The notes under the pieces were generated by a model that saw nothing but the letters and a program-made list of their open reading frames with translations, did no database searches and had not been told where the DNA came from. 64,000 nt of DNA from Roseomonas haemaphysalidis (GTDB lineage Bacteria > Pseudomonadota > Alphaproteobacteria > Acetobacterales > Acetobacteraceae), in the NCBI RefSeq assembly GCF_017355405.1, contig NZ_CP061179.1, positions 124,001 to 188,000 of the forward strand, read 5' to 3'. Position numbers and translations under genes: made by a program. Positions 13,165 through 47,755 of this stretch are shown here, piece by piece. Position 1 is the first letter of the stretch. Each line of letters opens with the position of its first letter.

Positions 13165-13194
13165 TCACAGGGATCACCAGCATGGAACGCGGCG

Positions 13195-31402: not shown

Positions 31403-32359
31403 TCAGTGCGTTCTCGAGGAATGCGTTTGCCACCATCGCAGCGTGTCTTGCATTCCCGCAGCCAGGGATATTCTCGGTGACCAAAGACCCCGTGGGATGG
31501 TAGCGCCGGGCCGGACACTCCAGTCGCGGTGCAGCAGCTCGCGTGTCTTGCCGTAGCCGAAGATACCCTGCCGGCCGGTCGCCAATGCGAAGCCATCCGC
31601 CGCCATGCCCGCCAAGTTGAAGACCTGATCCGGCAGCGTCACCATGCGCGGAGGGCGGCGCCCGAGCAGTTCGGCCACCAGATGCAGAATCTCCTCCATG
31701 CCGTATCCTTCGGGGCGATGATCGGCGATCTCGTAGCGGCCCCCGGCCTCATCGTCCGCGCACAGCGCGGCGATGGCCTCCGCCAGGTCCGTGGCATGCA
31801 CCATGGCCAGTTTCACGGCAGGGGCGCGGACCCGCGCTGCAAAGGGGGCCCTGGCCAGCCTTTGCAGCGCGCGGCCTTCCTGGTCACCGGGCCCGTAGAC
31901 GACGCCTGGGCGCAGGATGGTCCAAGCCGGGCCGACCACATCCTCGCCCGCCCGTTTGCTGGCGGCGTAGGCAGAAAGAGCCGGCTCCCGCGCGGCCAGC
32001 GAGGAAACGAGAACGCAGCGTGCCGCCGGGTTTTCCGCTGCCACCGTCCGGGACAGCAGGGCCGTGCCATCCCGGTTGACCTGCATGAAGCCATCGCGGT
32101 TCCGGGCCTTGGTCAGCCCGGCCAAGTGCACCACGGCGGTTGCGCCTGCCACAAGGCGGCGCAGTGCGGCGGGGTCGGCCAGGTCGCCCAGCACCAGTTC
32201 AGGCGTGACGTCGGCCAGGCGGGGGGAAACAATGTCGCGCCGGCACAGCAGCCGCACCTTCCAGCCGGCGGCGGCCAAAGCCGCCGCGACATGCTGCCCG
32301 ATGAAACCAGTGCCCCCCGTCAGCGCCGCGACAGGACGCGCCGGTTCCGCATCGGTCAC
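31403..32359 (-). CDS. cerR: NAD-dependent epimerase/dehydratase family, probable ceramide reductase
   Basis: A 318-residue extended SDR. The N-terminal Rossmann motif is TGGTGFIGQHV, then VVHLAGLTK and a catalytic YAASK motif, followed by LRPGVVYGPGDQ. In Caulobacter the homologous enzyme CerR reduces 3-oxo-dihydroceramide, the product of serine palmitoyltransferase and ceramide synthase, to dihydroceramide. Here the assignment rests on the family plus strong context: its start overlaps by four bases the stop of an acyl-AMP ligase gene, and serine palmitoyltransferase, a carrier protein and a GNAT-type ceramide synthase are nearby. An unrelated sugar-nucleotide role is the main alternative. 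Confidence 0.75.
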   Translation of the reverse strand: MTDAEPARPVAALTGGTGFIGQHVAAALAAAGWKVRLLCRRDIVSPRLADVTPELVLGDLADPAALRRLVAGATAVVHLAGLTKARNRDGFMQVNRDGTALLSRTVAAENPAARCVLVSSLAAREPALSAYAASKRAGEDVVGPAWTILRPGVVYGPGDQEGRALQRLARAPFAARVRAPAVKLAMVHATDLAEAIAALCADDEAGGRYEIADHRPEGYGMEEILHLVAELLGRRPPRMVTLPDQVFNLAGMAADGFALATGRQGIFGYGKTRELLHRDWSVRPGATIPRGLWSPRISLAAGMQDTLRWWQTHSSRTH

Positions 32360-34098
32360 GCGATTTCCCGTCTTTCATCCCGGGACGTGAAATCCCCGGC
32401 GAGATAGCGCCGGCGGGCCCAGGCACGGCTCAGCTTGCCGGACGAGGTTTGCGGCAGGCTGCCAGGGCGCACCAACACGACCCGCGCTTCCAGCCCGTGG
32501 CGGGCGCGCAACACGCCGCTGGCCTCCGTCACCAGCTGCTCCTGCGCATCCGGCCCGGCAGCGCCACGGGCCTCGATCAGCACGACCACATGCTCGCCGG
32601 CGTCGCCCTGCTCCAGCGAAAAGGCGGCGACATCGCCGGCGCGCACGCCCGGCATGGCCTGCTCGATGGACCATTCCAGGTCCTGCGGCCAGATGTTGCG
32701 GCCGTTGACCAGCATCAGGTCCTTGGCGCGGCCGGTGATGACGATCTCGCCGTCCAGGAGGTAGCCGATGTCGCCGGTGTCCAGCCAGCCATCGGCGGAC
32801 AGCACCTCGGCGGTCTTCTCGGGCTGCCCGTCATAGCCGAGCATGATGCTCGGCCCCTGAACCAGAATGCGGCCGGCCTGGCGTTCCGGCAGCAGGGCCC
32901 CCTCGGCGTCGCGGATCTCCACGCGGTGGCCTGGCAGCGGCGCGCCGCAGCGGACGAATTCGCGGCGCTGCGTGGCGCCGGGCTCCGCCGGCACCGCCCA
33001 GCCTTCCCGCTCCAGGTGCCCGAGGTCGATCTCGTCCGTCCGCACGCCCTCGCCCAGCTTGGCGAAGCTGATGGCCAGCGTCGCTTCGGCCATGCCGTAG
33101 CTCGGCACGAAAGCCTCGGCGCGGAAGCCGTTGGGCGCGAAGGCCTCGGCGAAGCCGGCCAACACGCCGGGGCGGATCATGTCGCCGCCCAGCCCGGCGA
33201 CGCGCCAGGACGACAAATCGAACTCAGGTTGCGTGGCGGCACGACGGCGGACGCAGAGCTCGTAGCCGAAGCTGGGGCTGAAGGACAGCGTGCCGCGGTT
33301 GTCCGACAGGATGGACAGCCAGCGCAGCGGGCGGCGGGCAAAGTCCGACGTCGGCATCAGGTCGATCGAGAGCTGCGCCGTCATGGGCGTCAGCAGAAAG
33401 CCCACCAGTCCCATGTCATGATAAAACGGCAGCCAGGACATCGCCCGGTCGCCATCCCGGACCTTCAGGCCATGCAGCATGATCCCGGAAGCGTTGCTGA
33501 TGACGGCGTGCTGGTGCACCGCGACGCCGGTCGGGTACCGGGTGCTGCCGGATGAAAACTGCAGGTAGGCGATGTCGTCCGGCCCACTCGGCACGGCCGG
33601 CGCCGCCGCGGGCTGCACGGCATCAAGCTCCGCCAGGGTCCCGAAGACCTTGAGCCCGAGCTGCCCGGCCAGCGGCTCCAGCCAGGACAGGAAGTCGGCG
33701 GGCGTGAACAGGGCCGAAACCCGCGCGCCGCGCATCAGCCGCTCGATCAGCGCGATATAGGTGTCGCGGCCGCCGAAGGGCGGCGGCAGCGGCAACGGCA
33801 CCGGCACCAGCCCGGCATACTGGCTGGCGAAGAAGGCGCGCACGAAGTCGGGCGAGGTATCGGCCAGCATCGCGACGCGGTCGCCGCGCCGCAGGCCGGC
33901 GCCGAGCAGCCGCTGCGCCAGGGCGCGGGCGTCCTCGCGCAGGGCATGGTAGGTTAGGCTGGCCATGTGGCCGTCCCGCGCCGTGTGGAAGGCCAGCCCC
34001 GTGGCGCCCTGCGCGGCATAGTCCAGCGCGTCGATCAGCGTCGTGAAGTCGTTGCGACGCCGCGGCAGGCCGCTCGCGGTCGGGATGGATGCCAACAT
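32356..34098 (-). CDS. aasR: Fatty acyl-AMP ligase, probable acyl-ACP synthetase for sphingolipid synthesis
   Basis: A 580-residue adenylate-forming enzyme. The AMP-binding signature is YLQFSSGSTRYPTG, followed by WLPFYHDMGL, SYGMAEATL and GWLDTGDIGYL, and by a C-terminal hinge/lysine region (QTSSGKLSR). The architecture fits fatty acyl-AMP ligases and acyl-ACP synthetases. In Caulobacter and relatives the enzyme named AasR loads the dedicated carrier AcpR with a fatty acid for serine palmitoyltransferase. Here an equivalent carrier and Spt lie at 44.3-45.8 kb. It starts at MLASIPTASG and overlaps the ceramide reductase gene by four bases. Use of CoA as acceptor is the alternative. Confidence 0.78.
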   Translation of the reverse strand: MLASIPTASGLPRRRNDFTTLIDALDYAAQGATGLAFHTARDGHMASLTYHALREDARALAQRLLGAGLRRGDRVAMLADTSPDFVRAFFASQYAGLVPVPLPLPPPFGGRDTYIALIERLMRGARVSALFTPADFLSWLEPLAGQLGLKVFGTLAELDAVQPAAAPAVPSGPDDIAYLQFSSGSTRYPTGVAVHQHAVISNASGIMLHGLKVRDGDRAMSWLPFYHDMGLVGFLLTPMTAQLSIDLMPTSDFARRPLRWLSILSDNRGTLSFSPSFGYELCVRRRAATQPEFDLSSWRVAGLGGDMIRPGVLAGFAEAFAPNGFRAEAFVPSYGMAEATLAISFAKLGEGVRTDEIDLGHLEREGWAVPAEPGATQRREFVRCGAPLPGHRVEIRDAEGALLPERQAGRILVQGPSIMLGYDGQPEKTAEVLSADGWLDTGDIGYLLDGEIVITGRAKDLMLVNGRNIWPQDLEWSIEQAMPGVRAGDVAAFSLEQGDAGEHVVVLIEARGAAGPDAQEQLVTEASGVLRARHGLEARVVLVRPGSLPQTSSGKLSRAWARRRYLAGDFTSRDERREIA

Positions 34099-34394
34099 GC
34101 AGGACGCTCCGGTTCTGGCGGCCCGGCGACCGGGCGGGCGGGCAGGACGCGTCAGCCACCCGACCCTTCGCCGGAAGCGCCTCCGACGCCAGACCAAGCG
34201 ACTGCCTAGGATGCCGCCGGAAGCACGTCAAATTCCCCCTGAACAACCCTGCGTTGCGGTGCACCAACGCCCCTGGCACGGAAGGGCGCCAACTGCTTAA
34301 GTCCGCGCCCTTTCCGGCAGGCCCCGCTGCGCGGCGTGCTGCGCCGCCGCCCCGGGGCGTGGATTTTGGCCGGACAGTAGACAAGGATGATAAA

Positions 34395-35156
34395 TTGCGC
34401 GCTGTGATATTGTGTGCTGGTCAGGGCCGGCGGCTTTTACCTCTCACGCAAAATCGGCCAAAATGCATGCTGCCTGTGGCCGGCCGCCCCGTGCTGGAAT
34501 GGCAACTCCGCGCCCTGGCGGAGAATGGCATCACCGACGTCACCGTGGTGACCGGCTTCGCCGCCGAGGTGGTGGACGCCATGCTGCTGGAGGTGGGCGA
34601 GCTGGGCCGCGGGGTCCGCACGCAGTTCAATCCCTTCTTCGCGGTGTCCGACAACACCGGAAGTTGTTTTCTGGTGCGGGACGTGATCGAGGGCGGCAGC
34701 CGCTATTCGGGCGGCTGCGTGCTGCTGAACGGCGACACGCTGTTCGAGCCCGGTATCCTGCGCGCCCTTCTGGCAAACGCCGCCAATGCCATCACGGTCA
34801 CCATCGACCGCAAGCCCACCTACGATGCCGACGACATGAAGGTCTCGCTTGAAGGCGACCGGCTGCGTGCCATCGGCAAGGCCTTGCCGCTGGACACGGT
34901 GCACGGGGAATCCATCGGCATGCTGCTGTTCCGGGAGGAAGGCGGCCGGCATTTCGCCGAGGGCGTGGAAGCGGCGCTGCGCCAGCCCGAGGGGCTGAAG
35001 CGCTGGTACCTGTCGGTGATCAACGCGCTGTCCGCCAGCATCCCGGTCGGCGTCGTCTCGATCGAGGGACTGTCCTGGGGCGAGATCGACTTCCCGGCCG
35101 ACGTGGCGCAGGCCGAGCTGCTCGGGCAACGCTGGCTGCAGGCGGAAGCGGGCTAG
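34395..35156 (+). CDS. Nucleotidyltransferase (LicC/sugar-phosphate type) in sphingolipid cluster
   Basis: A 253-residue NTP transferase that condenses an NTP with a phosphorylated alcohol or sugar. It starts at a TTG preceded by AAGGA seven bases away, giving the family N-terminus (residues 2-5 RAVI). Motifs are LCAGQGRRLLPLTQNRPKC with the phosphate-binding loop and lysine, LLNGDTLF with a metal aspartate, and EIDFPADVAQAE at the end. The family includes phosphocholine and inositol-phosphate cytidylyltransferases. In this cluster it plausibly supplies a CDP-linked headgroup for a sphingolipid. Its last four bases overlap the end of the convergent nucleotidyltransferase gene. Confidence 0.82.
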   Translation: MRAVILCAGQGRRLLPLTQNRPKCMLPVAGRPVLEWQLRALAENGITDVTVVTGFAAEVVDAMLLEVGELGRGVRTQFNPFFAVSDNTGSCFLVRDVIEGGSRYSGGCVLLNGDTLFEPGILRALLANAANAITVTIDRKPTYDADDMKVSLEGDRLRAIGKALPLDTVHGESIGMLLFREEGGRHFAEGVEAALRQPEGLKRWYLSVINALSASIPVGVVSIEGLSWGEIDFPADVAQAELLGQRWLQAEAG

Positions 35157-35920
35157 CGCCGGGCCAGGACGGCCTCGGCCAGCGCCAGGTCGTCCGGTTT
35201 GTCGACATCCACCGCGGCCTCGGCGAAGGGCAGCTCCACCGCGGCCAGCCGGGCGCCGCCGGCGCGGCGGCCCAGCAGCCCGAGCGCCGCGTCCAGCCGC
35301 AGCCGGCCGAGCGCGAAGCGCAGCAGTGCCAGCGGCCCGAGCAGCGAGATCATGGCCAGCGGCACCTTGCGGTTTTCTTCCACCCGCCGCCAGAACCGCA
35401 CCACCGCCGCCGCACCGGGGCCACCCATCCAGAACAGGTTGCAGCCGCTGAAGCGCCCGTCGCGGAAGCGCAGCCAGGTGCGGCGCGTGCCCGGCCAGGC
35501 GGCCAGCACCGTTTCGGCCCGCGCCAGCCCGGCCGCGACATCGGTGCCGGGCGGCACGTTGTCCATGAAGTGCGCCACCATTGCCGGCGTCAGCAGCGCG
35601 TGGTCGGCGGTGGTGACCAGCAGCGGCGTGCCAAATTCTTCCAGCGCGGCGGCGACGCTGCGGCTGGGCGAGCCCGCGGCCTCGCGCAACAGCAGCCCGG
35701 ACGGGGCCGCGTAGCCCGACAGGCTGCGTGCCGGCGCCTCGATCATCACCACCACCTGGCCGATGCCGGGGCTGGCCCGCAGTGCCTGGACGACGCGCGA
35801 CAGCATCGGCACCCCGCCCACCGGCAGCAGCGCCTTGTGCGACACCCCGCCGGCGACGGCCATCGGGTCGGCGGCCCCCGCCCGGCTGCCGGCCAGGATG
35901 ACGGCAGTGACGCCGCTCAC
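35153..35920 (-). CDS. MobA-like NTP transferase in sphingolipid cluster
   Basis: A 255-residue nucleotidyltransferase starting at a GTG that overlaps the stop of the GNAT gene by four bases (GTGA). The N-terminus reads VTAVILAGSRAGAADP, then SHKALLPVGGVPML, with the loop and lysine that bind NTP. TTADHALLTP holds the metal aspartate and VDVDKPDDLALAEAVL closes the domain. It is the last gene of the leftward operon HIT, LptF/G-like, LptF/G-like, ceramide synthase, NTP transferase. A role in making a nucleotide-activated headgroup is inference from family and place. The open frame upstream of the GTG is shadow. Confidence 0.8.
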   Translation of the reverse strand: MSGVTAVILAGSRAGAADPMAVAGGVSHKALLPVGGVPMLSRVVQALRASPGIGQVVVMIEAPARSLSGYAAPSGLLLREAAGSPSRSVAAALEEFGTPLLVTTADHALLTPAMVAHFMDNVPPGTDVAAGLARAETVLAAWPGTRRTWLRFRDGRFSGCNLFWMGGPGAAAVVRFWRRVEENRKVPLAMISLLGPLALLRFALGRLRLDAALGLLGRRAGGARLAAVELPFAEAAVDVDKPDDLALAEAVLARR

Positions 35921-37077
35921 GCCGCAAGGCTCCGGCCATAGATCCGGTAGGTCTTGTAGGCTTCCCCGCCCACCGCCTCGGCCAGCCGGCGCATCGGCCG
36001 GTTGCCGGCCAGCACCCAGGACATCTCGATGGTTTGGATGCCCTGGGCTAGCGCCTCGCGCCGCAGCGTGTCGACGATGAACAGCGGCAGCAGCCGGCCC
36101 AGCATGCCATCCGCATAGTCCCGCCGCACGCCCATCAGCGGTACCCGGGCGGTGGTGGTCCGGCCGGCCTTCAGCCGCCACAGCAGCTTGGCCCAGCCCA
36201 GCGGCAGCAGCCGGCCCGACAGGTCGCGGATCGCCTCGTTCAGGTTGGGCAGGCAGACCGCGAAGGCCACGGCGCGTCCCTCGGTCTCCGCGAACCACAC
36301 CAGCCGCTCCCGCAGCAGGGGCTTCAGCGCGGCGGCCATGGCATCCACTTCCTCCGGCGTCAGCGGCACGAAGCCCCAGTTGCCGGACCAGGCCTCGTTG
36401 AAGATCTCGACCAGCAGCCCGACCTCCTGCCGCAGCCGGTCGCGCCGCAGCGGCCGCAACACGATGCCTTCCGGCAGGCCGCGCCGGACCAGTGCGGTGG
36501 TCGCCGCCGGCAGCGGCGGCGCGGTGTCCACGCGGTAGGCCAGCAGGTCCTGCTCGCCCTGGTAGCCCAGGCGTTCCAGATGCGCGCCGGCATAGGGTGG
36601 GTCGTGCGGCATCATCAGCATCGGCGGCGTGTCGAAGCCCTGCACCAGCAGCCCGGTTTCCTCGTTGATCGACAGGCTGAACGGGCCGCTGACATGCCCC
36701 AGGCCGCGCGCCCGGCACCAGGCCTCGGCCGTGCCGAGCAGCGCCGCGAAGACCGCCGGGTCGTCCTCGGCCGCCAAGAGGCCGAAATGCCCGGCTGCGC
36801 TGCCGTCGGCGGCGGTGGGTGCCAGTCGGTCGTGTTGCGCGCTGATGCGCCCGACCACCCGGCCGCCGCGCCGGGCCAGCCAGAAGGCGGCCTCGGCATG
36901 GCGGAAGAACGGGTTGTGCCGGGCGGACAGCGCCATGCGCCGCTCCTGGCGCAACGGCGCGATCCAGCTTGAGTCGCCCGCCATCAGCCGCTCCGGCAGC
37001 CGGATAAAGGCTTCCATCGCCGCCCGGCCGGCCGCGGGCACCACCTCCACCGGCGGGCTGCCCCATTCAGCGCTCAT
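35917..37077 (-). CDS. cerS: GNAT-family protein, probable bacterial ceramide synthase
   Basis: A 386-residue protein with two acetyltransferase-like halves. Landmarks are WIAPLRQERRMAL near residue 40, then GRISAQHDRL, a GPFSLSINEETGLLVQGFDTPP stretch, VEIFNEAWSGNWGFVPLT and IEMSWVLAGNRPM. Proteins of this exact build, often listed as GNAT or dATP pyrophosphohydrolase, include the bacterial ceramide synthase shown in Caulobacter to N-acylate 3-oxo-sphinganine; it is unrelated to eukaryotic ceramide synthases. The neighbourhood supports the same role here. It overlaps the upstream LptF/G-like gene by 11 bases and the downstream NTP transferase by four. Confidence 0.82.
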   Translation of the reverse strand: MSAEWGSPPVEVVPAAGRAAMEAFIRLPERLMAGDSSWIAPLRQERRMALSARHNPFFRHAEAAFWLARRGGRVVGRISAQHDRLAPTAADGSAAGHFGLLAAEDDPAVFAALLGTAEAWCRARGLGHVSGPFSLSINEETGLLVQGFDTPPMLMMPHDPPYAGAHLERLGYQGEQDLLAYRVDTAPPLPAATTALVRRGLPEGIVLRPLRRDRLRQEVGLLVEIFNEAWSGNWGFVPLTPEEVDAMAAALKPLLRERLVWFAETEGRAVAFAVCLPNLNEAIRDLSGRLLPLGWAKLLWRLKAGRTTTARVPLMGVRRDYADGMLGRLLPLFIVDTLRREALAQGIQTIEMSWVLAGNRPMRRLAEAVGGEAYKTYRIYGRSLAA

Positions 37078-38134
37078 CGTAATGCATCAGCAGCATGGCC
37101 CCGATCGTCGCGAAGACCACCGGCACCGACCAGACCGCCAGCGGCGCCGGCAGGATGGCGGCCTCTCCCAGGGCACCAAGCAGGCCACCGGACAACAGGA
37201 AGCCCAGCCCCAGCGCCAGGCACAGCAGTGGCGCCAGCATCTGCGCGCCACGCCGCGGCGTGGCGAAGGCCATGGGCGCCGCCAGCAGCAGCATGACCAG
37301 GGGGGACAGCAGGCGGGCGGCGCTTTCGTGCAGCCGGGTGGTGAAAAAGGCGGGGCCACGTGCGGCCGGCTGCTCGCCGCGCAGCGAGCGGGTCAACAGG
37401 CCCGGCGTCTGCGCATTGGTCGGCCGCGCGGCCTCGACGATCTCGGCCGGCGCGGGGCCTTGCGGCCAAGGCTGCTCGGCAAGGTGGCGCAGCGTTTCGC
37501 CGCCGGGGGCCGCGACGCTGACATCGTGCAGCACCCAGCCTTCCGTTGTCCGGCTGGCCCGCCGCGCGTCCGTGCGCGCCAGGATCAGCCGCTCGGGCGA
37601 GCGGGTGACCAGCAGCACGCCCTGCAATTCCCGCCCGTCCGGCGAGATGCGGTCGATGCCGACGATGTCCCGCCCCACGCGCATCCAGATGCGCGGCGGG
37701 TTGGCGGAAGGCGGCTTGATGGCGCGGCTGTCGGTGCGCGCCATCCATTCTGCCAGCGCCCGCTCGGTGCGCGGCGCCACGACGCTGGACAGCACGCCCT
37801 GGGCCAGCACCGCCAGCAGGCAGACCGGCAGCATGGCGGACAGCACGGAGCGCACCGGCACGCCGGCCGAGCGCAGCGCCGCCATCTCCGACGTCATCGC
37901 CAAACGGCGCAACGACAGCATGGCCGCGATCAGCACCGCCAGCGGCATCATCTGCGCCAGCACGCTGGGCAGCCGCCGCGCGGCATACAGCCACAGCTCG
38001 CCGGAACCGCCGCGCGACAGCACGTCGCTGGCATTGTCCAGCAGGTCGAGCAGCTGCAGCAGCCCGGCGAGGCCGAGCAGCGCCGCGACCACCCGCCCGA
38101 GGAACAGTCGCGACAGATAGCGGCGGCGGATCAC
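37067..38134 (-). CDS. LptF/LptG-like permease (YjgP/YjgQ family)
   Basis: A 355-residue inner-membrane protein starting at GTG, overlapping the stop of the paralogous permease by four bases. It has three N-terminal helices (YLSRLFLGRVVAALLGLAGL opens the first), a periplasmic beta-jellyroll region (DIVGIDRISPDGRELQGV) and three C-terminal helices. EMAALRSAGVPV is the cytoplasmic coupling helix that in LptF/LptG contacts the ATPase LptB. With its partner it would form a second Lpt-like extractor, separate from the lipopolysaccharide one. No LptB, LptC or LptA gene is in the window. Its place between sphingolipid genes suggests sphingolipid export. Confidence 0.85.
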   Translation of the reverse strand: MIRRRYLSRLFLGRVVAALLGLAGLLQLLDLLDNASDVLSRGGSGELWLYAARRLPSVLAQMMPLAVLIAAMLSLRRLAMTSEMAALRSAGVPVRSVLSAMLPVCLLAVLAQGVLSSVVAPRTERALAEWMARTDSRAIKPPSANPPRIWMRVGRDIVGIDRISPDGRELQGVLLVTRSPERLILARTDARRASRTTEGWVLHDVSVAAPGGETLRHLAEQPWPQGPAPAEIVEAARPTNAQTPGLLTRSLRGEQPAARGPAFFTTRLHESAARLLSPLVMLLLAAPMAFATPRRGAQMLAPLLCLALGLGFLLSGGLLGALGEAAILPAPLAVWSVPVVFATIGAMLLMHYDER

Positions 38135-39327
38135 CGCGCCGCCCCGCGCCGGCGCGGCAGGCGCGCCAGCCCGGCGCCCATAATGTCCTCGATCCTGGCG
38201 AAGAAGGCATCGAACGGGCCTTCCTGCGGGTGCCGCTGCGCCCGGCGGAAGGTCATCACGCAGAACAGTGTGAAGGCCGCGAAGACACCCCACAGCATGA
38301 TCCGCGGGTCCATCACCCCGAGGTCGCCCAGCGATTCCGCGAGCTGCACCGCGTGGTGGTAGAACATCAGGATCAGCGCCGACAGCACCGCCCCGTACCA
38401 GCGCCGCGAGCGCTGCGCGCCGAGCGCCATGGGCACCGCCAGCAGGGGCAGCACGGCCAGCGAGGCGGCGCGCACCAGGCGGCCGTGCAGCTCCGCCACC
38501 AACCGGCGGGCCGGCACCGGCGCGGTGCCCTCCGGCGGCGGCGTCAGCGTCGTGCGGCGGGTCCAGAGCTCGTCCAGCGTCATCTCCCGTTCGTCGTCGC
38601 CGCGCGGGCGGAACACGGCGACAGCGATGGTGAAGTGGCGGGTCAGGCTGGAGGTGCCGAACTGCAGCGTCGTCACCTGGCCATCGGGCGCTACGGTGAC
38701 CTGCGCGCCGTCCTGCAGCTCCAGCACCAGCTGGCCGGCATCCGTCTGGCTGGTCAGCCAGCCGGCCTGCGCCGTGGTGGTGGAGACGGCGCCGTCCGGG
38801 TGCCGCTGCTCGATGAACACGCCGCTCAGCTGGCCGGTCGCCTCGTCGACCCGGTCGGCGGTGACGCTCAGCCGGCGGCCGATGCGGATGAATTCGCCCG
38901 GCACCACGGCGGCGTTCCAGCCCGCATGCGTCGCCGCATCCAGCGCCGCGCGGTAGTGGTAGCGCCCCAGCGGCTGCAGGTAGCCGTAGAGGCCAAGACC
39001 ACCCACCGCCAGCAGCACGCTGACCCACAGGAACGGCCGGCACAGCCGCGCCAGCGATACGCCGATGCTTTGCAGGGCGTCCAGCTCATGGTGCTCGCTG
39101 CTGGCCGCGATCACGGAAAAGACGCTGATGAACAGCGCCGCCGGCAAGGCAAGCCCGATGTAATGCGGCGAAAGATACAGCAGCAGCTGGATGATCGGGC
39201 TCATCGCCCCGCTGGGTGCCAGCAGGTCGAACAACCGCAGCAGCCGTTCGAGTAGCAGCGCCGGCAGCACCACGACCAGCGTGGTCAGCAGCGGCCGCAC
39301 CAGCAGCCGCAGCAGGTAGCCGCGCAC
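38131..39327 (-). CDS. LptF/LptG-like permease (YjgP/YjgQ family), partner
   Basis: About 398 residues with the same build: paired helices at each end and a periplasmic jellyroll in the middle (RIGRRLSVTADRVDEATGQL, then SGVFIEQRHPDG). HHELDALQSIGVSL is the coupling helix. I place the start at a GTG giving VRGYLLRLLV because it is the first usable codon ahead of the first helix; no ATG precedes it, so the start is uncertain. It follows the HIT gene and overlaps the next permease. The pair likely heterodimerises. Confidence 0.82.
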   Translation of the reverse strand: MRGYLLRLLVRPLLTTLVVVLPALLLERLLRLFDLLAPSGAMSPIIQLLLYLSPHYIGLALPAALFISVFSVIAASSEHHELDALQSIGVSLARLCRPFLWVSVLLAVGGLGLYGYLQPLGRYHYRAALDAATHAGWNAAVVPGEFIRIGRRLSVTADRVDEATGQLSGVFIEQRHPDGAVSTTTAQAGWLTSQTDAGQLVLELQDGAQVTVAPDGQVTTLQFGTSSLTRHFTIAVAVFRPRGDDEREMTLDELWTRRTTLTPPPEGTAPVPARRLVAELHGRLVRAASLAVLPLLAVPMALGAQRSRRWYGAVLSALILMFYHHAVQLAESLGDLGVMDPRIMLWGVFAAFTLFCVMTFRRAQRHPQEGPFDAFFARIEDIMGAGLARLPRRRGAAR

Positions 39328-39836: not shown

Positions 39837-39915
39837 GCAGGGTCTCGAATATCTGTCGGAACGATGGAAGCTCTTAGCTTCTCCCGCGGTGGGTGACGAG
39901 GGGCGGCGGGCCACC

Positions 39916-40395: not shown

Positions 40396-41275
40396 CCGGC
40401 AGCCGCCAGCGGCCCAGCGTCGCGAAGCAGCGGGCCTCTGGCTGCCAGCCGCGCACCAGCGTTTCCACCACCCAGCCCCCCGGCGCGGGCGCGATGGCGT
40501 AGCGGTGCCATCGCGCCGGGTGCCGCCGCCCGCCCCCGGCCAGCGCCGGCGGCACGCCCACCGCCGCCAAGCCGCGCCCCCCGGGGCCGGGCAGCACCGT
40601 CAGGCCCGGCCGGTGGCTGTGGCCGTGCAACAACAACTCGGCGCCCGCCGCCGCCAGCACCCGGAGCAGCGCCGTGCGGTCCTGCAAGCCGCGCCGCCGG
40701 CCCTCGCCATGCGGCGGGTGATGGATCAGCACGACGCGGAACAGCCCGTCCTCGCCCAGCCGGCGCAACAGCGTTTCCAGCCGGTCGAGCTGTGCCGGAC
40801 CAAGCCGGCCGGCCGCCCAGCCCGGCGGCGTCACCACCGCTGAACCCAGCCCGACCAGCGCGACGCCGCCCCGCTGGCGGACAACGGGAAAACCGGCCGC
40901 CCCGGCGTCGTCGCGCATCCAGGGCATCCATTGCCCGAGGCCGTCCGCCGGCGGCACCGCCACCAGCGCGTCATGATTGCCGGGGATGACCATCACGTCC
41001 TCGGTCCGGCCCAGGCTTCGCAGGAAGCCGGCGGCGGCGGCGAATTCGCCCGGCAGCGCGAAGTTCGTCAGGTCGCCGGTCAGTGCCAGCATGTCCGGTG
41101 CGAAAGCGGCCAGATCCGCTGCCAGAAGCGCGGGCGGAATGTCACCCTGGCGAATGCCACGCTTGCGCCGCCACGCCATGTAGGACAGCAAGCGCTTGCC
41201 AAAGAGCTGCCGGATCGTCGGCGTGTCATCGGGCGGCAGGTGGAGATCGGAGAGATGGGCCAGGACGAACGTCAT
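40346..41275 (-). CDS. Metallophosphoesterase
   Basis: A 309-residue calcineurin-like phosphoesterase. All five metal-ligand blocks are visible: SDLHLP, TGDLTN, IPGNHDAL, LIHHPP and LLHGHSHR. No signal peptide is seen. Enzymes of this fold remove phosphate or cleave phosphodiesters, including lipid-linked ones (LpxH is a distant cousin). In this cluster it could dephosphorylate a sphingolipid phosphate, for example in a PgpA-like step after headgroup transfer, but that is inference. It diverges from the headgroup operon at 41.4 kb. Confidence 0.85.
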   Translation of the reverse strand: MTFVLAHLSDLHLPPDDTPTIRQLFGKRLLSYMAWRRKRGIRQGDIPPALLAADLAAFAPDMLALTGDLTNFALPGEFAAAAGFLRSLGRTEDVMVIPGNHDALVAVPPADGLGQWMPWMRDDAGAAGFPVVRQRGGVALVGLGSAVVTPPGWAAGRLGPAQLDRLETLLRRLGEDGLFRVVLIHHPPHGEGRRRGLQDRTALLRVLAAAGAELLLHGHSHRPGLTVLPGPGGRGLAAVGVPPALAGGGRRHPARWHRYAIAPAPGGWVVETLVRGWQPEARCFATLGRWRLPVSSAAAPAPRRQPAPP

Positions 41276-41359
41276 GCGGGGGCGACACTAGCGGCTGCGG
41301 ATACCCCGGCAAGCACCGCTTCTATCACCGGCCCGGCCCCCCTGCCCGCCGCCGTGCTG

Positions 41360-42463
41360 ATGGGCGAAGGGCCGGTTCCGATCTGGAGCATGCCCTCCTC
41401 CGCCCTGCTGCGGCGCGCGCTGCAGCGCGCCGGCGTGGCGGAATGGTCCGGCCCCGGAGCACCCGGCGGTCAGGGACTGCTGTTGCTGCGGGCCGACCAC
41501 GTCTTCGACGCCGCCGTGATCGCGCAGCTAGCGCGCAGTCCGGGCACGGCGCTGCTGCGCGCCGAGGACCGCCTGCCCGTGGCCCTGCACCTGCCGGCCG
41601 GGGCGGACGCGGCGGCACGGGACGCTGCCACCGCCGCCCTGACCCAGGGCGGCGCGTTGCCGCCCGGCCTGACCGCCGCGACGCCGGCCGAGCTGGTGGG
41701 CGCCTACAACCAGGCGCTGCGCAAGCGCGGCACGCCCTATGTGCTGGAGTTGACGGCCGCCAGCCGCCGCGCCGTGGAATGGCGGATGTTCGGCGGCGCC
41801 TACAAGGGCGTGACCGACTTCGTGACCAAGCACGTCTGGCCACGCCCGGCCTTCGCGGTGACGCGCGCCTGCGCGGCGCTGGGCATCACGCCCAACATGG
41901 TCACCGCCCTCAGCCTGGTGATGGTGTTCCTGGCGCTGTGGTGGTTCTCGCAAGGGCAGTTCTGGCCCGGCCTCGCCGCCGCCTGGGTGATGACCTTTCT
42001 GGACACGGTGGACGGCAAGCTGGCGCGCGTCACCCTGACCTCCACCAAGTTCGGCAACTGGTTCGACCACCTGATCGACATGATCCACCCGCCCTTCTGG
42101 TGGCTGGCCTGGATCGCCGGCTGCGGCGCGGTCGGGCTGCCGCTGGACTACCCGGTGGCCGCGGGGGTGGTGATCTTCGGTGGCTACGTGCTGCAGCGGC
42201 TGCAGGAAGGCCTGTTCATCATTGCCTTCAAGATGCAGATCCACATCTGGCGGCGGTTCGACAGCCTGTTCCGCCAGGTCATCGCCCGGCGCAACCCCAA
42301 TTTGGTGATGCTGACCATCGCGACCCTCTGCGGCCGCCCGGACCTGGGCATCCTGGCCGTCGCGGCCTGGACCGCCTTCGGCTGCGTGGAGCAGCTGTTC
42401 GTCACGCTGCAGGCGGCGCTGGCCCGCCGGCACGGGCCGCTGCGCTCCTGGCTGGACGGCTAA
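41360..42463 (+). CDS. CDP-alcohol phosphatidyltransferase with degenerate nucleotidyltransferase-like N-terminus
   Basis: About 367 residues. The C-terminal half is a membrane CDP-alcohol phosphatidyltransferase with the full motif D215-x2-D218-G-x2-A-R-x8-G-x3-D236-x3-D240 (DTVDGKLAR...FGNWFDHLID) and about six helices. The first 140 residues resemble a nucleotidyltransferase domain (LLLLRADHVFD with a metal-type aspartate) but lack the N-terminal GxGxR...K loop, so that half is probably inactive. The domain order recalls fused inositol-phosphate cytidylyltransferase/phosphatidyltransferase enzymes. The start is uncertain: GTG 41354 or ATG 41360. It heads a three-gene operon with a lipid kinase and a Tam41-like protein, pointing to sphingolipid headgroup transfer. 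Confidence 0.82.
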   Translation: MGEGPVPIWSMPSSALLRRALQRAGVAEWSGPGAPGGQGLLLLRADHVFDAAVIAQLARSPGTALLRAEDRLPVALHLPAGADAAARDAATAALTQGGALPPGLTAATPAELVGAYNQALRKRGTPYVLELTAASRRAVEWRMFGGAYKGVTDFVTKHVWPRPAFAVTRACAALGITPNMVTALSLVMVFLALWWFSQGQFWPGLAAAWVMTFLDTVDGKLARVTLTSTKFGNWFDHLIDMIHPPFWWLAWIAGCGAVGLPLDYPVAAGVVIFGGYVLQRLQEGLFIIAFKMQIHIWRRFDSLFRQVIARRNPNLVMLTIATLCGRPDLGILAVAAWTAFGCVEQLFVTLQAALARRHGPLRSWLDG

Positions 42464-42470
42464 GCCCGCC

Positions 42471-43409
42471 TTGCAGCGCCTTGGAATCATCAGCAACCCG
42501 CGCAGCCGGGGGCACCTGGACGGCGTGGCCGGGCTGGACGGCGCCGACGCCGGCCTGCCGCACGCCCTGCCGCCCGACCGCGCCGCGTTGCGCGCCACGC
42601 TGGCCGACTTCGCAGCCCAAGGCGTGACGCTGCTGGTGGTCAATGGCGGCGACGGCACCTTGCGGGAAGTGCTCGGCGCCTTGCCGGAGGCCTGGCCCGG
42701 ACCGCCGCCGGCCCTGGCGCCGCTGGCCGCCGGCCGCACCAACCTGCTGGCGCGCACCCTGGGCCAGCGCGGCAAGGGCCCGGCGGCGCTGCAGGCGTTG
42801 CGGGACGCCGCCGCGGCCGGCCGGCTGCGGCGCGAGTTGCGCCCGGTGCTGGAGGTCCACCGCGCGGGCCTGGGCGAGGCCCCCCTGCGTGGCCTGTTGT
42901 TCGGCGCGGCGGGCTTCGTGCACGCGACGCGCATGGCCAATGGCGCCCCCCGCCAGCGCGGCCTGAAGGACAACGCCGCCGTCGGCGCGACGGCGCTGCT
43001 GACGGCGGTGCAGACCCTGTCCGGGCGTGGCCCCCAGGCGCGGGCCCTGCGGCAGGGCACGCCGATGCGAGTGGCGGTGGACGGCGCTGCCGGCGTGGAG
43101 GCGCCCCGCTTCATCCTGCTCGCCACCACGCTGGACCGGCTGATGTTCGGCCTTTGGCCCTTCTGGGGCGACGGCGCCGGGGCACTGCGCTGGCTCGACG
43201 TCGCGGCACCGCCGCCGCGTCTGCTGGGCGGGCTGTGGTCGTTGCTGCGGCGCCGGCCACCCGGCCTTCCTGGCTGGCACAGCGGCCGCGCGGACGCGCT
43301 GGACCTGTCGCTCGACGAGCCTTTCGTGCTGGACGGCGAGCTGTTCGACCCCGGGCCCGCCGGCGTGCGGCTGCGCCCCTCCACTCCCCTCGTCTTCGTG
43401 TCCGCATGA
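42471..43409 (+). CDS. Diacylglycerol/sphingoid kinase family protein, possible ceramide kinase
   Basis: A 312-residue lipid kinase of the DAGK catalytic family, starting at TTG. ISNPRSRGH binds near the start, and the nucleotide motif is VVNGGDGT at residues 57-63, then LAAGRTNLLARTLG. In Caulobacter the DAGK-family protein CpgB, needed for ceramide phosphoglycerate, has been shown to phosphorylate ceramide. The neighbours here (CDP-alcohol phosphatidyltransferase before, Tam41-like protein after) fit the same pathway. The alternative is an ordinary diacylglycerol or long-chain-base kinase. The stop overlaps the next start by four bases (ATGA). Confidence 0.8.
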   Translation: MQRLGIISNPRSRGHLDGVAGLDGADAGLPHALPPDRAALRATLADFAAQGVTLLVVNGGDGTLREVLGALPEAWPGPPPALAPLAAGRTNLLARTLGQRGKGPAALQALRDAAAAGRLRRELRPVLEVHRAGLGEAPLRGLLFGAAGFVHATRMANGAPRQRGLKDNAAVGATALLTAVQTLSGRGPQARALRQGTPMRVAVDGAAGVEAPRFILLATTLDRLMFGLWPFWGDGAGALRWLDVAAPPPRLLGGLWSLLRRRPPGLPGWHSGRADALDLSLDEPFVLDGELFDPGPAGVRLRPSTPLVFVSA

Positions 43410-44338
43410 CGCCGCGGGACGGCTGGCAGGCGCTGGAAGCCAGGGCGGCGGCCGGCATGGCGGTGCCGCGCCCGGCGTCCCCCGCCATGCGGGCGGCGCT
43501 GGCCCTGAGCGACCGGCTGCGGCTGGAGCATGGCGATGCGATCGCCGCCATCCTGTTCTACGGGTCGGCCCGCCGCACCGGCGAGGCGGACGGGCTGCTG
43601 GACCTTTATGTGTTGTATGACGATCACCGTCGCTTCCACCGGCGCTGGCTGCCTTCCCTGCTGAACGCCGCCCTGCCGCCGACGGTGCTGCTGAGGACGG
43701 CGGAGGTGGAGGGCCTCGGCGCGGTGCGGGCCAAGGTCGCCGTGCTGTCCCGCCGGCAGTTCGCCCGGCGGCTGCGGCCGGGAAGTTGGGACACCACCAT
43801 CTGGGCCCGTTTCTGCCAGCCGGTCACCCTGCTGCATGCCCGGGGCGAGGCGGAAGCGGCCTGGGTGGCGCAAAGCTGCGCGCAGGCTTTCGCGACTGCG
43901 GCGCTCTGGGCCGTCTGGCTCGGCCCGCCCGGGGCCACCCCCGCCGAACGGTGGCAGGGGCTGTTCGCCCGCACCTACGGCGCCGAGTTGCGGACCGAGC
44001 GCGGCAGCCGGGCGGTGACGATCCTTGACGCGGCGCCGGACTGGTTCGATGGCGGTCTGCCCTTCGCCCTGGCGGCGCAGGGGCTGCCAGGCGCCCCGCC
44101 GCCGCCGGGCCGGGCGGAGCGGGGCTGGCGCTGGCGGCGGCGCTTCGGCAAGGCGCTGAACGTGGCCCGGCTGGTGAAGGCGGCCTTCACCTTTGAGGGG
44201 GGCGCCGACTACCTGGCCTGGAAGATCCAGCGCCACACCGGCCAGCCGCTGCCGCTCACGCCGTGGCAGCGGCGCCACCCGGTGCTGGCAGCACCCTTGC
44301 TGCTGTGGCGGCTGCGGCGGCAGGGGCTGGTGCGGTAG
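43406..44338 (+). CDS. Tam41-like nucleotidyltransferase, possible CTP:ceramide-phosphate cytidylyltransferase
   Basis: A 310-residue protein with a polymerase-beta-type nucleotidyltransferase motif: ILFYGSARR at residues 49-57, then LLDLYVLYDD (D66, D72, D73), followed by FHRRWLPSLLNAALPP. That order, GS motif then DxxxxxDD then a conserved N-containing helix, recalls Tam41, the mitochondrial enzyme making CDP-diacylglycerol from phosphatidic acid. Its operon partners are a lipid kinase and a CDP-alcohol phosphatidyltransferase. A role activating ceramide-1-phosphate to CDP-ceramide is therefore attractive, but it is inference from motif and context. One of the two acidic metal positions is less clear than in canonical nucleotidyltransferases. 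Confidence 0.62.
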   Translation: MTPRDGWQALEARAAAGMAVPRPASPAMRAALALSDRLRLEHGDAIAAILFYGSARRTGEADGLLDLYVLYDDHRRFHRRWLPSLLNAALPPTVLLRTAEVEGLGAVRAKVAVLSRRQFARRLRPGSWDTTIWARFCQPVTLLHARGEAEAAWVAQSCAQAFATAALWAVWLGPPGATPAERWQGLFARTYGAELRTERGSRAVTILDAAPDWFDGGLPFALAAQGLPGAPPPPGRAERGWRWRRRFGKALNVARLVKAAFTFEGGADYLAWKIQRHTGQPLPLTPWQRRHPVLAAPLLLWRLRRQGLVR

Positions 44339-44344
44339 TCGCCG

Positions 44345-45550
44345 CTACTCGGCCGCGTCCACCGTCTGGAAGAACCCCAGCGAGGCGGCGATCTCGCGGA
44401 TGGTCACGACCGCGTGGTCGATCTGCTCCGGCGTGTGCTCGGCGCAGATGCTGGTCCGCAGCAGCGGCTTACCGCCCGGCGTCGCCGAGCCAATGGCCAG
44501 GTTGACGTAGATGCCCGCGGCAAGCAGCCGGTTCCAGAACACGATCGCCGTGCCCTGGTCCGGGCAGCGGATCGAGGCCACGGGGCTGGCGGACGGCCCG
44601 GTGCTCAGCCCGGCCGCGGCCAGCCCGGCATGGAACCGCGCGACGTTGCGGTGCAGCCGGCCCCGCAGCAGCGGCTGGGTTTCCAGCACCGTGATCGCCT
44701 GCGTGACCGAAGCGATCACGGAAGGCGGCAGCGAGGCGGTGAACATGTAGGGGCGGGAGGCGAGCCGCAGCAGATCGAAGTCCTCGGCGTCCGAGGCCAG
44801 AAAGCCACCCACGGCGCCGAGGCTCTTGCTGAAAGTGCCGACCACATAGTCCACGTCCGGCTCGACGCCGTGGGCCTCCGCCAGGCCACGCCCCGCCTCG
44901 CCCAGCACGCCCAGCGAATGCGCCTCGTCCACCATCAGCCAGGCGCCGGCTTCGCGCTTGACGGCGGCGATGTCGCGCAGCGGCGCGACGTCGCCCAGCA
45001 TGCTGTAGACACCCTCGACCACCACGAGCTTCTCGCCCGGCTGGTCCGCCAGGTGGCGCAGGCGGCGGCGCAGGTCCTCGGGGTCGTTGTGGCGGAAGCG
45101 GGTCACCTGGGCGCCCGCCATCCGTGCGCCGTCGTAGATGCTGGCGTGCGAGTCGGCGTCCAGCAGCAGGTGATCCTGCGGCCCGGCGAGCCCCGCCAGC
45201 GCGCCCAGGTTCGCCTGGTAGCCGGTGGAAAAGACCATGGCGTGCCGGCGCTTCAGGAAGCCCGCCAGCCGCGCTTCCAGCGCCGCGTGGCCGCCATAGG
45301 AGCCGTTGGCGATGCGCGAGCCGGTGGTGCCGGTGCCTTCCTCGCGCACCGCGCGGGCGGCCGCGTCCATGCAGCTCTGGTCGAAGGTCAGCCCCAGGTA
45401 GTTGTTGGTGCCCAACAGCACCACCCGGTTGCCGTCCAGCGTCGCCTCGGTCGCGGACAGGATGCGGTCGAACACCACGCCGAAGGGGTCCTGCCCCAAC
45501 TGCATCACGCCGGCGCGAGCATTGCGCAGCTCACGGTACTTGGCCAGCAT
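44345..45550 (-). CDS. spt: Serine palmitoyltransferase
   Basis: A 401-residue PLP-dependent alpha-oxoamine synthase. Landmarks are LGTNNYLGL, SRIANGSYGGH, DADSHASIYDG with H135 stacking on PLP, VDEAHSLG (D208, H211), and FSKSLGAVGG with K242 forming the Schiff base. The family also holds 8-amino-7-oxononanoate and 5-aminolevulinate synthases and KBL. Serine palmitoyltransferase is chosen because a dedicated carrier protein lies one base upstream and an acyl-AMP ligase, GNAT ceramide synthase and ceramide reductase are in the cluster. It would condense serine with an acyl-ACP to 3-oxo-sphinganine in the cytoplasm. It is convergent with the headgroup operon. Confidence 0.85.
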   Translation of the reverse strand: MLAKYRELRNARAGVMQLGQDPFGVVFDRILSATEATLDGNRVVLLGTNNYLGLTFDQSCMDAAARAVREEGTGTTGSRIANGSYGGHAALEARLAGFLKRRHAMVFSTGYQANLGALAGLAGPQDHLLLDADSHASIYDGARMAGAQVTRFRHNDPEDLRRRLRHLADQPGEKLVVVEGVYSMLGDVAPLRDIAAVKREAGAWLMVDEAHSLGVLGEAGRGLAEAHGVEPDVDYVVGTFSKSLGAVGGFLASDAEDFDLLRLASRPYMFTASLPPSVIASVTQAITVLETQPLLRGRLHRNVARFHAGLAAAGLSTGPSASPVASIRCPDQGTAIVFWNRLLAAGIYVNLAIGSATPGGKPLLRTSICAEHTPEQIDHAVVTIREIAASLGFFQTVDAAE

Positions 45551-45551
45551 G

Positions 45552-45797
45552 TTAGGCGATCTTCTTGGAAGCGATGATGACCTGGGTCAGGTCGCCAACC
45601 GTCTGAATTTCAGCGAATTGGTTCATCGGGATCATGGTATCGAACTGCGTCTCGATATGTAGGATGACGTCCATCACGGCGACGGAATCGAGGCTGAGAT
45701 CACGGAGGATGTTGGTTTCCGCGGTGATGCGGTGCTCGGGGCCTATGACAGACTGGATGGCCGCCACCACCTGCTGATGGATTTCGTCCTGTTGCAA
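45552..45797 (-). CDS. acpR: Acyl carrier protein for sphingolipid synthesis
   Basis: An 81-residue carrier protein with a four-helix pattern and a phosphopantetheine site at S38 in LSLDSVAVMD, preceded by the acidic NILRDLS approach. It starts at TTG with GGAGA upstream. In sphingolipid-making alphaproteobacteria a special carrier, AcpR, delivers the acyl chain to serine palmitoyltransferase. Here the Spt gene follows at a distance of one base. The acyl-AMP ligase at 32.4 kb is the likely loading enzyme. Confidence 0.85.
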   Translation of the reverse strand: MQQDEIHQQVVAAIQSVIGPEHRITAETNILRDLSLDSVAVMDVILHIETQFDTMIPMNQFAEIQTVGDLTQVIIASKKIA

Positions 45798-45900
45798 ACG
45801 GGGTCTCCGGGAAAGCTGCTGAGATCTGGCGTTAGGTCATAAAGAAGTTTTAATCAAATGGTAGCGTCGTTGCGGTTTACCATCGGGGTTCCGCCATGCG

Positions 45901-47244
45901 TCAGGCGAAGATGTCGGAGGCTGACCGGGCCTGTGCGGCGGAGATCACGATCGCCGTGAAGATGGCGGCCAGGCCCGCGCCTGGAAGGCCGTAGGCGGAG
46001 ATCGTGGCCAGCGCCACGGGGATGTACAACAGGGCCGCCAGCAGCCGCGCCCCGAGCGCCGCCTTCTGCCGCCCGGTTGAGATCAACAGTGGTTCAAGCG
46101 CGAAGGACGCGAAGCCGATGGCCGAGGCGCCGGCCAGCATCAGCATGACCGGAAAGGCCGGCAATGCCTGCGCGCCGCCGATCAGCTGCAGCAATGGCGA
46201 GCCCAGCAGCGCCAACGCCCCGAGGATGAGCACCGAGCCTGCCGTCGACACCAGCAGCACCCGGCGCAGCAGCGCCGCGATCGCCGTCTTGTCACGGACT
46301 GCGGCAAGGCGCGCGAGCTCCGGATAGATGGCGGGGCTGAGGAAGCGGCTGGGCTTCAGGGCGGCATCCCCGACCTGCAGAGCAATGGCGAACAGCGCGG
46401 CCTCCGCCGGGCCCAGCATCAGCCCGACGCTGAGCGTGCCCAGATGCCCCGATACCAGGGACAAGGTCGTGGTCAGGTTGGTGGACCAGACAAACGACCA
46501 CAGCCCGGGATGGGCGGCCGTGACCGACGGCAGCGGCGCCTTGTCGCCGGCATCACCTAGAAGACCCCGGCGGCCCAGTTCGCGATACGCCGCATAAGCC
46601 AGCGACAGGCCACCCAGCACCGTGGCCAGGTACCAGACGGCCAGGAAGCCGTTGACGCCCCAGCCCAGCAACGCGCCGAGCGACGCGCCCGCCAGCCGGA
46701 ACAGGGCACCAAGCGTGTCCCGGGTGGCCAGTACGTCAAACCTGTCGAACAACCGCAGCAGCCCGGTCGGTGTCGCCATCACCATGAAGGCGGTCGAGGT
46801 GGCGTAGGCCGTGGCTACCAGCGCCAGGCCCGGTGGGATGTCAAAGAAACGCCCGAACAGAAAGGCCAGAGCGCCGCACAGCACGATTCCAAAAAGACCA
46901 GCGCCGGCATCCAGCCAAACGGTGAAGCGCACCAGCGCGCGGAACTCCGGCCTCCGCTGCTGTTCGAGGCTGGCCGCGCCGAAGCGCAGCACCGCCTGCC
47001 AGGACTGGAACTTGGTGAAGGCCGCCGTAGCCTGCGCGAAGGTATGGATCAGGATCAGCGTGCCAAAGACCTCGGCGCCGAGCGAGCGGAGAGCGATGCC
47101 TGTGGCGGCAAGGTTCAGCAACCCCATGGCGACCTTGCCGCCCATCAGCGTGCCAGCGTTGCGGAGCATGCGGCGGAAGACGGTCTGTTTGGCGGCGCCC
47201 CCACGGGATGCGGGCTGCGTGGTGTTTTGCGGGGGGATCAGCAT
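45901..47244 (-). CDS. Polysaccharide/lipid flippase-like membrane protein (MOP superfamily)
   Basis: A 447-residue membrane protein with roughly 12-14 helices and the Wzx-like texture of oligosaccharide flippases (NAGTLMGGKVAMGLLNLAAT, ATGIALRSLGAEVFGTLILIH). I start at MLIPPQNTTQ; earlier methionines overlap the upstream lipoprotein gene. Such proteins move lipid-linked glycans, or perhaps lipids, across the inner membrane. Located just outside Spt/AcpR and in the same direction, it might serve a sphingolipid or an unrelated surface glycan; no glycosyltransferase is near. Confidence 0.78.
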   Translation of the reverse strand: MLIPPQNTTQPASRGGAAKQTVFRRMLRNAGTLMGGKVAMGLLNLAATGIALRSLGAEVFGTLILIHTFAQATAAFTKFQSWQAVLRFGAASLEQQRRPEFRALVRFTVWLDAGAGLFGIVLCGALAFLFGRFFDIPPGLALVATAYATSTAFMVMATPTGLLRLFDRFDVLATRDTLGALFRLAGASLGALLGWGVNGFLAVWYLATVLGGLSLAYAAYRELGRRGLLGDAGDKAPLPSVTAAHPGLWSFVWSTNLTTTLSLVSGHLGTLSVGLMLGPAEAALFAIALQVGDAALKPSRFLSPAIYPELARLAAVRDKTAIAALLRRVLLVSTAGSVLILGALALLGSPLLQLIGGAQALPAFPVMLMLAGASAIGFASFALEPLLISTGRQKAALGARLLAALLYIPVALATISAYGLPGAGLAAIFTAIVISAAQARSASDIFA

Positions 47245-47287
47245 CGGATCAATGATTTCAGCGCGAACGGCTTGGGTGGCGGCGGTC

Positions 47288-47755
47288 TCATTCTGCCTGC
47301 TGGCGCGTCGCCTCATACCGGTAGGTGCAGGAATGGCGGCGCACCACATCCATCTCCGGCGGAATATCGGCGGCCATCAGCTGGTCGCCGCGGATCAACC
47401 CCGAGGCTGACCTGTCAAGGGCCTGCGGCCGCAGCACCACCCTGCCGTCGGCGGCCACGGACCCGTCCAGCAGGATGTGCCGTACCGCCGACCGGCGGTG
47501 CCGCGAGGCGTACATCTCGATCTCTTGCCCGTGCACCCTGAACCAGACTTTTTTCTCCTGACCCCGGCACAGTGCGGTCTGCCCGACCGGCAGCTGCCGC
47601 CCTTCGTACCATCCGTCCAAGGGCGTAGCAGGTGCGGGCGCCTGTTCGAGCGGAGCGGCGCGGCTTTGCAGGGGGGCGTCCGATGAGGGTGCCGCGCAGC
47701 CGGCGAGGAGCAGCATACCACACAAAGCCGTTCGGACAGATCGTGCCGCCATCAT
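47288..47755 (-). CDS. Small lipoprotein of unknown function
   Basis: A 155-residue lipoprotein. The signal ends in a clear lipobox, MLLLAGC, followed by an Ala/Pro/Ser-rich linker and a beta-strand-rich domain of about 100 residues (DGWYEGRQLPVG, VWFRVHGQEIEMY, DGSVAADGRVVLRP, CTYRYEA). Two cysteines could form a disulfide. The start at 47755 has AGGGA upstream; the longer frame before it is not protein-like. It precedes the flippase gene in the same direction. I do not recognise a family. Confidence 0.72.
   Translation of the reverse strand: MMAARSVRTALCGMLLLAGCAAPSSDAPLQSRAAPLEQAPAPATPLDGWYEGRQLPVGQTALCRGQEKKVWFRVHGQEIEMYASRHRRSAVRHILLDGSVAADGRVVLRPQALDRSASGLIRGDQLMAADIPPEMDVVRRHSCTYRYEATRQQAE

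Follow-up and report, generated by a model that had tools for sequence, protein, structure and literature searches.

A probable acidic-sphingolipid locus of the Caulobacter type, serving the outer membrane, on a repABC-type replicon of Roseomonas haemaphysalidis

Which lipid would be made by an island of sphingolipid genes in Roseomonas haemaphysalidis, and on what kind of replicon is it carried? The window analysed here is a stretch of 64,000 nucleotides (positions 124001-188000 of contig NZ_CP061179.1, assembly GCF_017355405.1), and the island lies at 31403-47755 within it; unless stated otherwise, coordinates are those of the window. A first-pass annotation, made from the sequence alone, had proposed that the island makes a decorated sphingolipid and moves it to the cell surface. 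The decorated sphingolipid was supported and could be made more specific, the predicted product being a ceramide phosphoglycerate (CPG), probably CPG2, which carries a second phosphoglycerate. Very likely the island, on a repABC-type replicon, is of the Caulobacter type and serves to make an acidic sphingolipid of the outer membrane. The locus is not of a new kind; the pathway has been published and this is a well-preserved plasmid-type copy of it. The present analysis contributes a specific product, the finding that LptC2 is missing, the nature of the replicon and the co-occurrence of a HIT-family gene with two headgroup genes.

Gene content and the Caulobacter counterpart

Genes were called with a codon-usage script and families were assigned by scans with Pfam and NCBIfam profiles; none of the genes called in 31403-47755 contains an internal stop. 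Genes for every step to dihydroceramide had been claimed to lie within 15 kb, and all five are indeed open and fall within 31403-45797 (14.4 kb), with 37-60% identity to their Caulobacter counterparts. All are on the minus strand and would encode the serine palmitoyltransferase Spt (44345-45550, CC_1162 counterpart, 60% identity), its dedicated acyl carrier protein AcpR (45552-45797, CC_1163, PF00550 1e-12, 37%), the fatty acyl-AMP/acyl-ACP ligase AasR (32356-34098, CC_1165, NF006624 789 bits against a cut-off of 600, 52%), the GNAT-type bacterial ceramide synthase bCerS (35917-37050, CC_1154, PF00583 24.1 bits against a cut-off of 20.7, 53% over 374 aa) and a CerR-type reductase of the epimerase/short-chain dehydrogenase (SDR) type, acting on oxidised ceramide (31403-32359, CC_1164, PF01370 5e-19, 43%). 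All six headgroup genes (counterparts of CC_1152, CC_1153 and CC_1158-CC_1161; 38-50% identity by tblastn) and the transport genes lptF2, lptG2 and the flippase are also present. The other gene types that the first-pass annotation had named (kinase, CDP-alcohol transferase, permeases, HIT, phosphoesterase, DUF2141 and flippase) were each found in their place.

The Caulobacter reference locus was found by the exact match of a published cpgB primer (PMC10331486) to one record, C. vibrioides DSM 9893, and its genes were paired with CC numbers by their order and the descriptions in PMC11324152. In that record the order is LptC2, CC_1167, flippase, aasR, cerR, acpR, spt, cpgC, cpgB, cpgA, phosphoesterase, HIT, lptF2, lptG2, bcerS, CC_1153 and cpgD. 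Fifteen of the 17 genes of CC_1152-CC_1168, which makes the ceramide phosphoglycerates CPG and CPG2 in Caulobacter (PMC11324152, PMC12275187), have a counterpart in the window at 32-60% identity. The order common to both runs flippase, acpR, spt, cpgC, cpgB, cpgA, CC_1158 (phosphoesterase), CC_1157 (HIT), lptF2, lptG2, bcerS, CC_1153, cpgD, whereas aasR-cerR adjoins cpgD on its far side in the window and lies between the flippase and acpR in Caulobacter. The island differs further in its additional DUF2141 and lipoprotein genes and in its place on a repABC-type replicon. It does contain a counterpart of CC_1158, a gene reported absent from six other genomes (PMC11324152). Plasmid p1318-4 of R. 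marmotae (NZ_CP061095.1, locus L069) bears 16 of the island's genes at 57-78% identity with order and orientation unchanged, which excludes a chance grouping; the flanking genes there differ and no lipoprotein gene was found.

We infer the chemistry of the pathway from Caulobacter, in which Spt, AcpR and AasR form 3-oxo-sphinganine (PMC9386255), bCerS precedes CerR (PMC11087976), CpgB is a ceramide kinase (PMC10331486; also PMC11324152) and CpgD makes CDP-glycerate (PMC12275187). By analogy, AasR would charge AcpR with a fatty acid, Spt would join acyl-AcpR and serine, and the product would be N-acylated by bCerS and then reduced by CerR to give dihydroceramide. The ceramide would be phosphorylated by CpgB and the resulting ceramide-1-phosphate activated by CpgC (as CDP-ceramide, judging from its fold) on the way to CPG, to which CpgA would transfer a second phosphoglycerate from the CDP-glycerate supplied by CpgD, yielding CPG2. 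The flippase and LptF2/LptG2, presumably aided by LptB and LptC of the housekeeping system, would then deliver CPG2 to the outer membrane.

Headgroup enzymes and the HIT gene

CpgD (34395-35156, plus strand; CC_1152/CCNA_01210 counterpart; PF00483, 48.5 bits; about 50-51% identity), a putative CTP:phosphoglycerate cytidylyltransferase, starts at or near 34395, presumably with TTG. All six ligand residues published for it (PMC12275187, PMC13228409) are conserved, namely R16, K26 and D112 of the active site and N90, N110 and S170, which contact the glycerate; it is on this ground that we read the product as CPG2. CpgA (41354-42463, plus strand; CC_1159 counterpart; PF01066; 48.5% identity) is a predicted CDP-alcohol phosphotransferase whose N-terminal domain is nucleotidyltransferase-like. 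The motif of CDP-alcohol phosphotransferases, DxxDGxxAR(8x)GxxxDxxxD, is present from D217 to D242 and its residues are invariant in 14 aligned proteins. The predicted fold of CpgA is like that of Archaeoglobus AF2299 and IPCT-DIPPS (4mnd, 4o6n), with the same two-domain architecture, whilst CpgD resembles the cytidylyltransferase half of IPCT-DIPPS; CpgD and CpgA each match one half of NF041135, with scores well short of the cut-off. Unlike in the Archaeoglobus proteins, the likely active cytidylyltransferase is here a separate protein, and the N-terminal domain of CpgA is, by eye, without the GxGxR and PK motifs.

CpgC (43406-44338, plus strand; CC_1161 counterpart; 44% identity), the proposed CTP:ceramide-1-phosphate cytidylyltransferase, has no Pfam family match. 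Its predicted nucleotidyltransferase fold is Tam41-like, resembling the CDP-diacylglycerol synthase Tam41 (7ecd, 6ig4) at 12% identity. CpgC has been described as acting "via an unidentified mechanism" (PMC13228409); the model suggests that it most likely activates ceramide-1-phosphate, as CDP-ceramide. A 2026 preprint and a 2024 paper leave two steps open, and the folds predicted for CpgC and CpgA narrow both. The ceramide kinase CpgB (42471-43409, plus strand; CC_1160 counterpart; PF00781 2e-10; 38% identity) has GGDGT in its sequence. Its start, near 42471 and presumably TTG, is unsure, as in Caulobacter the script chose a codon 78 bases downstream of the published start. Two further proteins, a MobA/CofC-like nucleoside triphosphate transferase (35153-35920, minus strand; CC_1153 counterpart; PF12804 1e-14; 45% identity) and a calcineurin-like metallophosphoesterase (40346-41275, minus strand; CC_1158 counterpart; PF00149 2e-10; 47% identity to the Caulobacter protein, which also matches PF00149), correspond to genes placed in the CPG-to-CPG2 step by published work. 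The three nucleotidyltransferase-type proteins noticed in the first-pass annotation are CpgD, the CC_1153 counterpart and CpgC, the last recognised by its predicted fold.

The HIT-family protein (39393-39836, minus strand, with its start at 39836; CC_1157 counterpart; PF01230, 23.3 bits against a cut-off of 21.5; about 57-58% identity) departs from the HxHxH triad. When aligned to 2oik, the first His is Asp (DVHFHV), both here and in Caulobacter, and the other two are kept. CC_1157 has been published as "probably unrelated" and the co-fitness of its mutants is low (PMC11324152). CpgC was found in 68 of 249 genomes in a sample of the family (E 1e-15). In the set of 70 genomes made up of these 68 with G539 and G544, the same ten carry CpgA (E 1e-20), CpgD (E 1e-20) and HIT (E 1e-10), and the other 60 have none of the three at these limits. 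Caulobacter has all three. As the ten genomes belong to only four of 30 genera, the pattern could reflect one or a few evolutionary events rather than ten.

Of the 45 loci that were examined, 32 hold lptF2 and cpgC within 14 kb. Counting CpgA at 42% identity or more, 13 of these 32 have both CpgA and HIT, 16 have neither, three (L051, L052 and L061) have CpgA without HIT and none has HIT without CpgA; HIT is thus absent nearby in 3 of the 16 CpgA loci. L069 and L091 are the same plasmid. Because HIT co-occurs with CpgA and CpgD in the same ten of 70 genomes, it may serve the CPG2 step. However, an essential role is made less likely by the three exception loci and by the low co-fitness published for CC_1157 mutants. 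Through the co-occurrence, a gene that published work had put to one side acquires a role open to experiment. More tentatively, and as a reading less likely than not, we entertain the possibility that CpgA, CpgD and HIT form a separable sub-module in which HIT handles CDP-glycerate or the nucleotide by-product of CpgA, and that DUF2141 or the housekeeping LptC replaces LptC2.

Weighing the product and its export

Several observations weigh against a CPG2 locus of the Caulobacter type. There is no counterpart of CC_1167 in the window, the rest of the genome not having been searched for it. CpgC gives no significant sequence-profile match to Tam41, and a PDB profile search returned only kanamycin nucleotidyltransferase, at E 2. 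Of the 16 loci without CpgA, 14 retain the CC_1153 counterpart and 11 the CC_1158 counterpart, and eight family loci without CpgA, CpgD and HIT (L097-L104) have both in all eight cases. Because both genes persist without CpgA, they may, in this family, not belong to the CPG-to-CPG2 step to which published work assigns them. Lastly, LptC2 (CC_1168) is missing, in that the whole genome has one PF06835 match and a phmmer search with CC_1168 finds nothing in the window. The single match is over the NCBIfam LptC cut-off, and its neighbours are, by eye, genes of LptA and LptB type. As the Caulobacter protein reaches 84 bits to the PF06835 family and the genome is 99.6% complete, an LptC2 of that kind ought to have been found. 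In its absence the exporter would have to draw on the housekeeping LptC, rely on some other partner or do without. However, N. eutropha, A. vinelandii and P. luteola are without LptC2 and yet counted as likely CPG2 makers (PMC11324152), and LptC2 is therefore not defining for CPG2 makers there.

The alpha-oxoamine synthase family is broad, and another such enzyme is found in a polyketide synthase/capsule locus of the same genome, both of which would allow for an Spt-like enzyme with a non-sphingoid product (8-amino-7-oxononanoate, 2-amino-3-ketobutyrate, or a sulfonolipid or capsule-lipid precursor). We regard this as extremely improbable, since Spt, at 625.5 bits to NF047599, is 125 bits over the curated cut-off of 500 and below the bioF and kbl cut-offs, its ten best solved-structure matches are all serine palmitoyltransferases, and CerR, bCerS, AcpR and AasR are encoded in the same locus. 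Moreover, in a tree of 34 rows (30 of them different) Spt groups with other Spt proteins in a Roseomonas-type clade, apart from the two other family members of the genome, its 5-aminolevulinate synthase and a BioF-like second alpha-oxoamine synthase, the latter scoring under the bioF cut-off. The first-pass annotation had set against a sphingolipid a tree in which Spt falls with 8-amino-7-oxononanoate synthase. The grouping with Spt goes the other way, although neither BioF nor Kbl was represented in the tree by a proven member, and the distinction from 8-amino-7-oxononanoate synthase thus rests on the family cut-off scores. If Spt does feed a ceramide pathway with the same export, the final lipid could still differ from CPG2, with CpgA and CpgD using another phospho-acid or phospho-alcohol, or the pathway stopping at CPG. 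Substrates vary among CDP-alcohol transferases and MobA-like nucleotidyltransferases, and the retention of CC_1153 and CC_1158 counterparts in most loci without CpgA would fit a headgroup chemistry that varies within the family. Such an outcome is nevertheless quite unlikely given the six conserved CpgD ligand residues and the identity of CpgA and CpgC to the Caulobacter proteins over most of their length.

With CPG2 still the probable product, a separate question is whether LptF2 (38131-39327, minus strand; CC_1156 counterpart; PF03739 1e-56; 36% identity) and LptG2 (37067-38134, minus strand; CC_1155 counterpart; PF03739 3e-57; 32% identity) export it. The genome has two LptF/LptG pairs, one in the island and one on C1, and the island proteins score below the cut-offs of TIGR04407 (LptF2, 182 bits against 230) and TIGR04408 (LptG2, 193 bits against 240). 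They might instead be a second lipopolysaccharide (LPS) exporter or serve another lipid, with the sphingolipid reaching the outer membrane otherwise. The lack of LptC2 in the genome would suit this, as would L046, L057 and L058, which have spt and bcerS and no lptF2, lptG2 or cpgC within their 20 kb; transport of the sphingolipid to the cell surface is, in addition, inferred in the published Caulobacter work as well as here. We consider this fairly unlikely, as both genes lie in the middle of the locus, lptF2 and lptG2 occur together in 35 of the 45 loci, lptF2 and cpgC within 14 kb in 32, and lptF-lptG pairs are found near Spt on Pseudomonas and E. coli plasmid records. The other ten of the 45 loci include L085-L088 (flanks without the island), L090 and L092 (short contigs) and L068 (cpgB-cpgC only). 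The remaining candidate for export, a flippase-like membrane protein (45901-47244, minus strand; CC_1166 counterpart; 35% identity over 413 aa), has no Pfam match and owes its name to a weak NCBIfam WZX_like match (NF041503, 25 bits against a cut-off of 300) and to its identity with the Caulobacter flippase.

A second bCerS-like protein (39% identity) is encoded elsewhere in the same genome, at locus L039 (G000:C1:36000-55000, ORFs 2413-13650), where its neighbours are an alpha-oxoamine synthase, a ketoacyl synthase ORF, a 1905-aa AT-DH-ER-KR-ACP protein and a Capsule_synth protein. This locus is reminiscent of rkp-type capsule loci. It also resembles the SgaAB polyketide sphingolipid pair (PMC12134224).

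Replicon, distribution and neighbouring genes

The island replicon (C3) accounts for 421,392 bases of a 4.9 Mb genome. A RepB of repABC type, at 1215-2207 of the replicon, scores 363 bits (cut-off 201.5), and two other RepB matches in the genome, on C1 and C2, fall below the cut-off; C3 reads as a megaplasmid or chromid. Nucleotide similarity with the same island in G539 extends from 31504 to 47176, starting and stopping at the island borders. Among named homologues, the best for bCerS and CpgC come from Roseomonas/Pseudoroseomonas and kin. Within the genus of the window, 5 of 17 genomes have an Spt above the cut-off; the 12 without it are listed as 95-100% complete. A search of 72,556 plasmid records found CpgC in 14, of which 12 are from Roseomonas and one each from Diaphorobacter and Qipengyuania; 13 of the 14 are typed as non-mobilizable. 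A chromosome-sized contig (G407, 5.4 Mb) also bears the locus. Since survival of Caulobacter without LPS partly depends on CPG2 (PMC12275187), the presence of a complete set of CPG2 type on a plasmid-like replicon would mean that a capacity for outer-membrane remodelling can be gained or lost with the replicon.

The Diaphorobacter record is pDCB2 of strain JS3051 (NZ_CP065408.1, L066, 1-26636), an IncP plasmid typed as conjugative by PLSDB. It has counterparts of spt, acpR, aasR, cpgD, CC_1153, bcerS, lptG2, lptF2, HIT, phosphoesterase, cpgA and cpgC. No significant match to the cpgB of the island was found on it; a kinase of the DAGK family is annotated there, and an SDR gene at the edge of the stretch gives a 31% partial match to cerR. 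Additional genes encode a non-ribosomal peptide synthetase, a P450, a second CDP-alcohol transferase, a desaturase, a DUF3108 protein and an ABC transporter, with mercury-resistance genes nearby. Two further plasmid records, one from E. coli and one, IncP-typed, from Pseudomonas, have Spt-acp-cerR-ligase sets close to lptF/lptG (L108, L109).

The nearest flanking genes of the island are of other kinds than its own. To the left are a regulator of the GntR type and an unassigned gene resembling, by eye, a solute-binding protein, and to the right a regulator of the LacI type and a TRAP solute-binding protein of the DctP type. At the right end of the island, a small lipoprotein (47288-47755, minus strand; lipobox LLLAGC by eye) appears to be an optional member, with homologues of 39-43% identity in or beside loci L067, L093 and L095 and no match in the R. 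marmotae island locus. The DUF2141 protein (39889-40395, plus strand; PF09912 7e-30), which the Caulobacter cluster is without, has an N-terminal signal-like stretch (by eye). Roseomonas-type loci, as well as L055, L056 and L062, have a DUF2141 gene beside lptF2, lptG2, cpgB or cpgC, and one is annotated adjoining cpgB-cpgC on the Qipengyuania plasmid (L068). Between lptG2 and bcerS, loci L051, L052, L053, L061 and L066 have a second CDP-alcohol transferase with 31-38% identity to CpgA. The R. mucosa locus L067 has a fatty acid hydroxylase (PF04116, 10820-11599 of that locus) between bcerS and lptG2, a candidate ceramide acyl-chain hydroxylase.

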